Assembly (NCBI RefSeq): GCF_001436255.1
Contig: NZ_AZEI01000076.1
Span: forward strand, 62,001-126,000
Direction of reading: 5' to 3'
DNA: 64,000 nt
Source of the DNA: Lentilactobacillus rapi DSM 19907 = JCM 15042
GTDB lineage: Bacteria > Bacillota > Bacilli > Lactobacillales > Lactobacillaceae
The notes beneath the pieces were generated by a model. That model worked only from the letters and a program-made list of their open reading frames with translations, was not told the origin of the DNA and ran no database searches. The first letter of the stretch is position 1, and the number at the start of each line of letters is the position of its first letter. Positions 49,611-52,481 of the stretch are shown piece by piece. Made by a program: the position numbers and the translations under genes.

Positions 49611-51308
49611 ATGTTACTTGAACTATCAATTACTGATTTTGCGATCATTGAACATTTAGACATTGAATTTCAAGCAGGCATGACGGTGTTAACTGGCGAG
49701 ACCGGTGCCGGCAAATCGATTATTATTGATGCGGTCGGGCTACTGGTTGGTGGCCGTGGTTCCCACGATTTGATTCGAACCGGCGCGAAAAAGTCGGTCA
49801 TTCAGGGTAACTTCATCCTCCATAATGACAATCCTACATATGCTGTTTTAGATGACCTTGGGATTGATCACAGCGATGGTAACGTGATTATTGAACGCGA
49901 AATTTTTGCAAACGCGCGCAATAGTTGTCGGGTTAATGGGATTATGGTCAATATTGCATCTTTGAAACGAATTGGCGAAACCATTGTCGACATTCAAGGA
50001 CAAAATGAACACCAGGAACTAATGAAGCCGGAACGGCATATTCAATTACTGGACGATTTTGCAGAAGACGAATTGCAACCAATTTTAAGTTCTTATCAAG
50101 AAAAGTACGACAAATTCATCAAGCTTCGGGCGCTCAACGAGAAAAAGCATCAAAATGAAAAACAGTGGGCCCAACGGGTGGATATGCTGAAATTCCAAAT
50201 TAAAGAGATTGAGGCCGCTGACTTACATGAAAATGAAGATACCGAGCTAACGGCTGAACGTGATCATCTCAACAATTTTCAAAAAATTCATGATTCCTTA
50301 CTGAGCAGCTATGAAGGAATCAACGGTGACGATTCGGGACCTTTGGATTCAATTGGATCAGCAATGAGTTCAATGCAAGAAATTGAAGACTTAGATCCAG
50401 ACTACAAGCAAATTTCTGACAATTTATCCGGGGCGTTTTTTACACTTCAAGATGTTGCCAGTCAAATTTCTGATCAGTTGAGCAGCTTAGAGTTTGATCA
50501 GGATCGACTTGATCAAGTTGAACAACGGTTAAATACGATTTATCAGTTGAAACATAAGTATGGTGATTCTGTCGACCAAATTCTGAAATATCTCAAAAAA
50601 ATTCAAAAAGAATTAGCGGATATGTCTGGAACGGTCAGTGAAGATCAAGATCTTGACGAGCAATTAACCACGATCAAAGCATCCCTGATCAAAGATGCCA
50701 AAAAAATCAGTGATATCCGGCGCAAATCTGCTAAGGAATTGGAAAATGCGGTCCATCACCAATTAGCGGATTTATACATGGATAAGGCTGTTTTTGAAGT
50801 AAACATCAAGCAAAATACCGCACTTAACCGACTGGGTGCTGACCGGGTTGAATTTTATATTCAAACCAATCCGGGAGAAAAAATGTTACCCCTGGTTAAA
50901 TCAGCTTCTGGTGGGGAACTGTCTCGTATTATGTTGGCATTAAAAACGATGTTTGCAAGGGCTGCCGGGGTCACTTCGATCATTTTTGATGAGGTGGATA
51001 CAGGTGTCTCCGGTCGGGTCGCTCAGGCAATTGGTAATAAAATCTATACGATTTCAACCAAGTCTCAGGTGTTATGTATTACGCATCTCCCACAAGTTGC
51101 CGCAATGAGTGATCATCACTATTTCATTGAAAAAAAAGTAACGGACAACCGAACCACTACGACGATTACCGAACTGACTGCCAAGCAGAGTGTGAAGGAA
51201 ATTTCCCGAATGTTGGCCGGAACTGCTGTCACCAAATTAACTAAGGAGCATGCTCAAGAACTCCTGAATCTCGCGGACGAGGAAAAGGTTAAAATTAGTC
51301 AGGATTAA
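49611..51308 (+). CDS. recN: DNA repair protein RecN
   Basis: A 565-residue SMC-like ATPase for double-strand break repair. Walker A TGETGAGKS is near residue 30-38, QGQNEHQEL near 131, the coiled-coil arms flank residue 310, ASGGELSRIMLALK forms the signature motif and IIFDEVDTGVSG the Walker B. Follows argR by 22 bases. The hairpin after it has its T run on the other strand. Confidence 0.96.
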   Translation: MLLELSITDFAIIEHLDIEFQAGMTVLTGETGAGKSIIIDAVGLLVGGRGSHDLIRTGAKKSVIQGNFILHNDNPTYAVLDDLGIDHSDGNVIIEREIFANARNSCRVNGIMVNIASLKRIGETIVDIQGQNEHQELMKPERHIQLLDDFAEDELQPILSSYQEKYDKFIKLRALNEKKHQNEKQWAQRVDMLKFQIKEIEAADLHENEDTELTAERDHLNNFQKIHDSLLSSYEGINGDDSGPLDSIGSAMSSMQEIEDLDPDYKQISDNLSGAFFTLQDVASQISDQLSSLEFDQDRLDQVEQRLNTIYQLKHKYGDSVDQILKYLKKIQKELADMSGTVSEDQDLDEQLTTIKASLIKDAKKISDIRRKSAKELENAVHHQLADLYMDKAVFEVNIKQNTALNRLGADRVEFYIQTNPGEKMLPLVKSASGGELSRIMLALKTMFARAAGVTSIIFDEVDTGVSGRVAQAIGNKIYTISTKSQVLCITHLPQVAAMSDHHYFIEKKVTDNRTTTTITELTAKQSVKEISRMLAGTAVTKLTKEHAQELLNLADEEKVKISQD

Positions 51309-51387: not shown

Positions 51388-51693
51388 TTAAAACTTTTTG
51401 ATTGCTTGGATTTCATTGATCGAGAAAATTCGCGTAAAGTGATTGTCAGCAGATGTAATTAAAAAGCGACGATCACTAATCTTTGAAAGATAGCCAGCTG
51501 AATCGGGCGTATGATCGTTAAATTGGACGATAATTGGGAACTTTTGACTTAAAGCTTTATCAATGTAGACGTCTAATTGAAAGGTTGGCATTTGTTTGAC
51601 CTGGGTATTGTCTGTCACCAGATCAAAGAAACGGTTGTAATTGTCTTTAACAGATTTAGTGATTTCCGATAAATAGGATTGTTTGTTTTGCAT
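51388..51693 (-). CDS. Small YolD-like protein under a LexA box
   Basis: The 101-residue protein has a helical N-terminus and, at about 40-98, VYIDKALSQKFPIIVQFNDH followed by AGYLSKISDRRFLITSAD and ending FSINEIQAIKKF. This pattern resembles the C-terminal half of YolD-like proteins, which are often SOS-induced companions of Y-family polymerases. The usual N-terminal DRGMxKW part is missing. ATG 51693 follows GGGGTGAAC. Its promoter carries an SOS box (separate entry). No polymerase gene is adjacent; recN is next to it in the convergent direction. Family assignment is moderate. Confidence 0.6.
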   Translation of the reverse strand: MQNKQSYLSEITKSVKDNYNRFFDLVTDNTQVKQMPTFQLDVYIDKALSQKFPIIVQFNDHTPDSAGYLSKISDRRFLITSADNHFTRIFSINEIQAIKKF

Positions 51694-51723
51694 TTTGTTC
51701 ACCCCGAACGTTTGTTTGTAGTT

Positions 51724-51757
51724 TCATTATACGAACAACTGTTCGAAATTGCAAGAC
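51724..51757 (-). promoter_or_regulatory. Promoter with LexA (SOS) box, YolD-like gene
   Basis: On the minus strand TTGCAA is at the -35 position and TATAAT (complement of ATTATA near 51726-51731) at -10, with a 17-base spacer that contains CGAACAGTTGTTCG, the reverse of plus-strand 51732-51745. This 14-base perfect palindrome matches the Gram-positive LexA consensus CGAAC-N4-GTTCG, and its placement between -35 and -10 would block RNA polymerase. Expression should rise with DNA damage. A second, weaker half-match lies at 51705-51718. Confidence 0.82.
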
Positions 51758-51866: not shown

Positions 51867-52481
51867 ATGGCTAAAAGAGGAATGTTGATTGTTTTGTCAG
51901 GTCCATCAGGAGTTGGTAAGGGAACAGTCAGAAAAGCGCTGTTTGAAGAACCAGATGTCGATTTTGAATACTCAACATCGATGACGACCAGGGAGCCCCG
52001 CCCTGGTGAAAAGAATGGTGTCGACTATTATTTTGTTTCGAAAGAACAGTTTGAGAAGAACATTCAAGATGGTGAGATGCTTGAATACGCAAAATACGTT
52101 GACAATTACTACGGAACGCCATTAAAATATGTTAATGAAACGTTGAATTCCGGTAAAGATGTCTTTTTGGAGATTGAAGTGAATGGTGCCATGCAGGTTC
52201 GGGCTAATTGTCCTGATGCCGTATTTGTGTTCTTAACCCCACCAGACCTGATGGAATTAAAGCACCGGTTAATTGGTCGAGGGACTGACGAAATGGATGT
52301 GATCAACCGCCGAATTAAAAAGGCCGTTGGTGAAATCAGCATGATGCGAAATTATGATTATGCGGTTTTGAATGACAAAGTTCCTTATGCCGTTGATCGA
52401 ATTAAATCAATTATTAGAAGTGAACGATTAAAAGTTGCTCGGGTGATGCCCGATTATGAATCAATGTTAGGAGAAGATTAA
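51867..52481 (+). CDS. gmk: Guanylate kinase
   Basis: Converts GMP to GDP with ATP. The 204-residue protein has P-loop GPSGVGKGT at residues 11-19, [15 protein letters not shown] and [14 protein letters not shown] precedes the ATG. It heads the gmk-rpoZ pair; coaBC then follows after a separate promoter. Confidence 0.96.

Follow-up and report, generated by a model that had tools for sequence, protein, structure and literature searches.

The question raised by this locus is what a small, solitary gene with a LexA box in its promoter does for its host when no polymerase gene lies beside it. A preliminary description had seen in the product only the C-terminal half of a YolD-like protein and had left two readings of the gene, an SOS regulon member that had lost its polymerase partner or a new small effector. 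Membership of the SOS regulon has held up in the analysis reported here, the loss of a partner has not, and of the two readings the small effector is to be preferred.

Promoter and operators of the gene

The gene lies on the minus strand of the window (the whole 64-kb stretch of DNA that was analysed) at 51388..51693, where a 101-aa open-reading frame runs from an ATG at 51693 to a stop at 51388. The ATG start, the orthologue alignment and the predicted fold lead us to annotate the product as a stand-alone YolD-superfamily (Sm/SH3-barrel) protein. An alternative GTG start 9 bases upstream of the ATG would give 104 aa; the ATG is preferred since the aligned orthologues begin there, with the MQN/MEN-type N-terminus common to them. 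The closest named relative of the protein is from L. dabitei (98%). A convergent plus-strand open-reading frame at 49611..51308, which we take to be recN, flanks the gene on one side, as first described, and a divergent plus-strand frame at 51867..52481, presumably gmk (guanylate kinase), flanks it on the other. Both neighbours come from the ORF list and from synteny, and their names (that of recN also given in the preliminary description) do not derive from a family search.

Reading the minus strand, TTGCAA at 51749..51754 forms the -35 hexamer, with its TTGC nearly invariant in the promoter consensus, and TATAAT at 51726..51731 the -10 hexamer, which is near-invariant in the same consensus. 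The 17-base spacer between them (TTTCGAACAGTTGTTCG, minus strand) holds box 1, CGAACAGTTGTTCG, a perfect 14-base palindrome at 51732..51745 on the minus strand that is recognized as a LexA box by sequence and conservation, and the exact CGAACNNNNGTTCG occurs once in the 64-kb window, at this box. This much confirms the promoter as originally read, but the single LexA box reported then is one of two. A second operator, box 2 (CAAACAAACGTTCG, with one mismatch), had been overlooked just downstream of the -10 hexamer at 51705..51718 on the minus strand, and is likewise identified by sequence and conservation. It sits 27 bases downstream of box 1, with 13 bases between the end of box 1 and its own start, and it touches the Shine-Dalgarno sequence GGGGTG (51700..51705, minus strand), which lies 6 bases before the ATG and appears in the consensus as a conserved GGgGg. 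That box 2 is a real operator is supported by a near-identical variant, CAAACAAATGTTCG, which precedes umuC in the same genome.

Single boxes show no enrichment: LexA-like sites with up to two mismatches number 16 in the window against 20.7 expected, and strict GAACNNNNGTTC sites number 20 across the genome, fewer than the 69 of the reversed pattern. What identifies the LexA boxes is where they lie and how well they are conserved. The 2.85-Mb genome holds a single copy of the strict two-box pattern, at this gene, and likewise one of the reversed control. LexA itself is encoded in the genome, with a DNA-binding match at C12:308371 and the open-reading frame in L215. As a discriminating trait, the presence of LexA was dropped, since 200 of 201 genomes gave a LexA match at E <= 0.001 (197 over the cut-off).

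Of the first 30 orthologue loci, 29 have a readable promoter (the other lies at a contig end), and in each of the 29 the two boxes stand 27 bases apart. Among 61 later loci (L052-L112, picked from profile matches, with L112 repeating L026), the pair was found near the gene in 51, and in the controls the same test picked out none of 148 flanking windows and none of 305 Markov-shuffled sequences. The ten later loci without the pair are seven of family f4 and L078, which were kept in this count as misses, together with L096 and L110, each with a single box. The strict two-box pattern was found in 197 of 397 Lactobacillaceae genomes against 39 of 397 for the reversed control (counted from the table). 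The scan of related genomes that had been proposed for the palindrome has in this way found it retained, together with the second box. From 66 distinct promoter sequences, with a 39-base spacing, the consensus gTTGC..tTt.GAACa..tGTTCGTATAATgaAgacACAAACAAatGTTCGGgGg was obtained, in which both boxes and the -10 hexamer are almost invariant. Protein identity across genera falls to ~30% and below while the two-site operator stays conserved; judged from this near-fixed promoter and the fast protein divergence, the operator has evolved at a much lower rate than the protein under its control.

LexA (SOS) control of the gene through two operators is supported by these comparisons. LexA would occupy two sites, one between the -35 and -10 hexamers and one over the transcript start, and since it can occupy both, the gene would be almost silent until LexA is cleaved.

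Two further LexA-type arrangements were seen elsewhere. In a g37 genome, a two-box LexA operator stands just upstream of a UmuC gene (L196:2001-2043), which shows that genes other than the one studied here can carry the double operator. At L176:1501-1512, a GAACNNNNGTTC site lies ~45 bases before an open-reading frame (1556-2713, 385 aa) that resembles phage-type integrases and, going by this site, is possibly under LexA control.

Distribution and gene neighbourhood

In a single-sequence search, 136 of 397 Lactobacillaceae genomes (17 of 40 genera) proved to have the gene, and a 25-sequence profile found it in at least 238 of the 397 genomes and at least 23 of the 40 genera. Among the matches listed, there is one copy per genome, with one genome excepted, and 159 of the 397 genomes have no profile match among the matches listed. 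An order-level sample gave a profile match in 89 of 295 genomes. In the Lactobacillaceae loci that were read, the gene adjoins gmk or lies one open-reading frame away from it and is transcribed away from it, while the other flank is mostly a convergent recN, with opu genes instead in some genera.

The promoter pattern was also used to fetch 16 loci. In twelve of these, an open-reading frame of 100-161 aa overlaps the boxes or follows them closely; gmk flanks the boxes on their other side in 11, and the twelfth begins at a contig end. Eight of the 12 come from genomes missed by the profile, so conservation of the place and the operators extends to genomes where the protein profile fails, and the two-site operator offers a handle for orthologues that escape profile searches. 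In two of the other four loci the pattern leads to UmuC (directly in one, 0.4 kb downstream in the other), and of the remaining two, one is at a contig edge and one has no open-reading frame of 60 aa.

Some of the profile matches were not accepted as orthologues. L078 was excluded as a full YolD-like gene next to UmuC. The f4 matches are weak (E 9e-6 to 3e-4), occupy a different place in the genome, adjoin open-reading frames resembling rimM and trmD at six of the seven loci read, carry LexA boxes at none of the seven, and were set aside for these reasons. The f4 genomes look to us like Streptococcaceae, and at these loci (L081-L084, L102, L104, L105) they encode a protein of 106-118 aa whose C-terminal sequence is similarly barrel-like. 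This protein is possibly a non-SOS relative in a family that is reported, in the part of the source available to us, to lack LexA (PMC3616900).

No sign of an origin as phage or plasmid cargo was seen: relatives of the protein were found neither in plasmids nor in phages by single-sequence tblastn, and a search of viral contigs with one conserved pattern confirmed none. In contrast, one UmuC-linked YolD-like protein matches 995 plasmid records; phage copies of full YolD-like proteins were not found.

One member of the family has very probably been encountered before. In L. plantarum, lp_1611 was noticed in 2007 as a hypothetical gene beside the opu operon and in the opposite direction, with a LexA-DinR motif and a 32-fold increase under H2O2, according to the portion of the report available (PMC2174512). 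The same opu layout, with gmk on the other side, is present at two g38 loci (L027 and L053), and g38 is presumably the genus of L. plantarum; by this analogy of layout, lp_1611 is very probably an orthologue of the window gene. As a hypothetical open-reading frame of strain WCFS1 with a LexA-DinR motif and opposed opu neighbours, it matches the layout of the window gene's family, while its published account, as far as the available portion goes, gives no family, second box or order-wide conservation and suggests a transcription regulator (PMC2174512).

Kinship and predicted fold of the protein

Pfam and NCBIfam returned 0 families for the 101-aa protein, YolD (PF08863) included. The Pfam YolD model was also absent among the matches of 25 members of the family and had 0 matches in the whole genome, so that the search with this model suggested in the preliminary description was negative at each level. 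The model is insensitive here, as it matches one of ten full YolD-like proteins (set A2, whose genes adjoin a UmuC-type polymerase gene or lie one gene away) and misses the full YolD-like gene of this genome. The weak Pfam matches of single members (best E 0.0059) are to unrelated families and were set aside.

Kinship to YolD was found by comparing profiles. With hhalign, the window family aligned to A2 over columns 6-99 with a probability of 95.8 (P 7e-9), beginning just after the DRGxxKW-like N-terminal segment that the A2 proteins carry, with variants, and running to the C-terminus. In controls, the best of 200 column shuffles reached 0.0029 (100 per side: 0.0029 and 0.038) and the reversed comparison 0.33. 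Without the two nearest members, the alignment still gave P 1.5e-6 (probability 90.3), and against five Lactobacillaceae YolD-like proteins alone it gave P 3.6e-4 (probability 36.9). In the reverse search, the full YolD-like profile found the window gene in its own genome (E 1.1e-4) as well as the promoter-defined gene of genus g24 (6.2e-4). The DRGxxKW segment is absent from all 25 aligned members. The view of the product as the C-terminal half of a YolD-like protein is thus supported by the hhalign probability and by the reverse match. Among phage protein families, phrog_12716, of unknown function, is matched by 4 of 25 members (best E 3.2e-4); a link through phrog_16307, which 9 of 10 A2 proteins match, was rejected as too weak, with 2 of 25 members matching at a best E of 0.04.

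With the YolD family PF08863 (Bacillus YolD, YqjX and YozL, and S. aureus YolD), the protein has in common LexA control, the region alignable after the N-terminal motif and a barrel-type C-terminal domain. It differs from that family in having no Pfam match, no DRGxxKW segment and two LexA boxes, and its gene is not part of a polymerase operon and shows no fixed link to UmuC from genome to genome.

AlphaFold2, run on nine Lentilactobacillus sequences, predicted a helix at residues 37-50 and five strands, with pLDDT block means of 86-92 over residues 41-100 and values below 50 for residues 1-29; the five models average 52-74, on an alignment of nine sequences from one genus. The structure prediction that had been proposed as a check thus returned, on a model from nine sequences, a predicted Sm/SH3-type barrel. 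As a caution, Foldseek gave no match at E <= 0.001 among solved structures, and small barrels resemble one another easily, a designed barrel ranking second in VIA (Z 8.5). The predicted barrel fits the literature, in which YolD is assigned to the WYL superfamily and described as having an Sm-like SH3 barrel (available parts of PMC4012209 and PMC6511836). The WYL domains of DriD and PafBC, which have the damage response in common with the window gene, form a similar Sm-like barrel and rank among the closest solved structures (VIA Z 8.1 each); there, the barrel is part of a larger DNA-binding activator, whereas the window protein is free-standing with no DNA-binding domain seen. By hydropathy, the window protein is soluble with no membrane segment, the maximum 19-residue value in 25 members being 1.33. 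Basic residues recur among these members at R76 (in 21), R88 (in 22) and K100 (in 24).

Relation to polymerases and candidate roles

The genome encodes DinB and UmuC, the latter at C12:517740. A full YolD-like gene (C12:481658-482023, or L214:1659-2024; 121 aa) with an NDRGMMKW segment and a LexA-like box, CAAACATATGTTCG, in its promoter lies 36 kb away from umuC. In its distance from the polymerase this full gene resembles S. aureus yolD, a LexA-boxed gene located away from umuC according to the available parts of PMC11442139 and PMC6511836. Directly after umuC in the present genome is an open-reading frame (L136:2758-3078 / L216:4998-5318) for a 106-aa protein of unknown kind; short open-reading frames follow umuC in other Lactobacillaceae, and a YolD-like gene is third in L134 and L137-L139. 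Beside the window gene and its orthologues, no Y-family gene was present in the loci read (flanks of 1.5-3 kb), apart from L078.

Dependence on a polymerase was assessed in 201 evenly sampled genomes, grouped by the number and strength of IMS matches (a cut of our own, with DinB type judged by match strength only). The window gene was present in 92 of 146 genomes with at least two Y-family matches, 11 of 26 with a DinB-strength match only, 6 of 27 with a weaker match only and 0 of 2 without an IMS match. In this sample it is mildly associated with UmuC (92/146 vs 11/26). Nine of the 11 DinB-only carriers were read (G037, G070, G050, G051, G090, G122, G146, G171 and G192, with G059 and G140 left out), and the box pair stands at the gene in all nine, at loci L094, L099 and L217-L223 (7/7 in the last group). 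The full YolD-like profile was compared with the window gene in 80 chosen genomes, which include all 11 DinB-only genomes carrying the window gene. It matched 57 of 59 genomes with at least two Y-family matches, 3 of 15 DinB-only genomes and 2 of 6 with a weaker match only, where the window gene was found in 50, 11 and 4; because this choice favours window-gene carriers, the 11 of 15 overstates, and what can be read from these figures is how the two proteins differ. The three DinB-only genomes positive for YolD comprise a weak partial match (G007, 9.5e-4), a match that covers part of the profile (G019) and a 60-aa remnant (G122). The full YolD-like gene follows UmuC, and the window gene does so much less. 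It is not tied to DinB either, since in genus g6 it is present where only a weaker, UmuC-like match exists. For the g6 genomes G005, G045, G077, G104, G130, G154, G177 and G197, the lack of a DinB-strength IMS match suggests loss of DinB.

On balance, we consider it probable that the gene is a stand-alone member of the LexA regulon whose product, a YolD/WYL-superfamily barrel, no longer works with UmuC and serves the damage response as a small adaptor. The gene would be old within LexA-bearing Lactobacillales and its product a soluble ~100-residue Sm/SH3-barrel protein without DRGxxKW, that segment being presumably the part tied to UmuC. The gene's persistence in genomes where UmuC seems absent makes a separate role in the response to DNA damage probable. 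By analogy with ssDNA-binding WYL domains, the barrel may bind damage-derived ssDNA, its RecA-coated form or a component of the replication fork; we infer this target because the WYL domain of DriD binds ssDNA, as stated in the available part of its literature, and because of the basic residues R76, R88 and K100. More tentative, and rather doubtful as a whole, is a bolder form of this reading, in which the protein would be an unnamed core SOS effector of the Lactobacillales, a free-standing WYL/Sm barrel that reads damage-made ssDNA or the RecA filament and signals to replication or repair independently of UmuC, under a slow-evolving two-site LexA operator.

The protein might instead be a YolD subunit working in trans, one that, once the SOS response is induced, associates with UmuC or DinB and has a translesion role like that of UmuD' for Pol V, despite the missing motif. 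Its homology to UmuC-linked YolD-like proteins and the higher frequency of the gene in genomes with at least two Y-family matches than in DinB-only genomes speak for this, as does the S. aureus precedent of a LexA-boxed yolD away from umuC (PMC11442139, PMC6511836, each in part). We nevertheless regard it as unlikely, given that a full YolD-like gene with a LexA box is already present in the genome, that 11 carriers have only a DinB-strength match (with the box pair in the nine read), that the g6 carriers, with only a weaker UmuC-like match, remove a tie to DinB as well, and that no Y-family gene adjoins the gene in the loci read, L078 excepted.

Less probable again is a growth checkpoint of the SOS response, in which the protein would restrain division, replication or other growth and the double operator would silence a harmful product. 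The two operators, together with the strong induction reported for lp_1611 in the available portion of PMC2174512, would fit such a role, and the fast divergence of the protein behind a near-fixed promoter would fit it also. However, the UmuC gene at L196 has two boxes as well, so two boxes do not imply toxicity, and the kinship to YolD and WYL proteins points to nucleic-acid work. Inspection by eye found no yneA-like open-reading frame beside lexA in this genome, only one that we take to be ynzC-like, and this also speaks for a checkpoint role; known Gram-positive SOS division inhibitors have a membrane segment, however, and hydropathy finds none here.

A small Hfq-like, RNA-binding Sm protein that alters mRNA fate after damage would explain why Hfq chains top both fold lists (Foldseek, best E 1.9e-3; VIA, Z up to 8.8), with the helix plus five-strand barrel in common. 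Identity in the Foldseek alignments with Hfq is, however, 8-15%. Sequence kinship to Hfq was not detected in a PDB sequence search, whose 6 matches at E values of up to 10 (the best 0.047) include no Hfq and nothing convincing. Small barrels are readily alike, and YolD-like proteins are nearer in sequence, which together make an Hfq-like role very unlikely. The lost partner of the preliminary description, that is, a decaying YolD remnant whose polymerase is gone, would suit the missing N-terminal half and the lack of a polymerase next to the gene but is scarcely credible for an intact open-reading frame, almost always single-copy, with place and operators conserved across many genera, kept in 11 of 26 DinB-only genomes and accompanied in this genome by UmuC and a separate LexA-boxed full YolD-like gene.

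Parts of the picture are already known from sources available in part, namely a LexA-controlled yolD away from umuC in S. aureus and lp_1611 as a LexA-motif, peroxide-induced gene. In the same way, 13 LexA operons have been predicted for Lactobacillaceae (PMC3616900), and YolD is a proposed counterpart of UmuD, for which the evidence is called inconclusive or missing in the available parts of PMC6511836 and PMC11442139. The open-access literature searched, which did not extend to the supplement of PMC3616900 that possibly lists the gene, contained no account of the two-box operator with its order-wide conservation, of the synteny, of a protein lacking DRGxxKW being linked to the YolD superfamily or of its independence from UmuC.

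As a natural YolD-superfamily protein that is without DRGxxKW and is kept without a UmuC-type match, the product of this gene separates the role of the barrel from that of the N-terminal segment. The gene, read as encoding a LexA-controlled barrel adaptor, would also add an SOS gene common to many lactic acid bacteria, one that is testable in L. plantarum through lp_1611.
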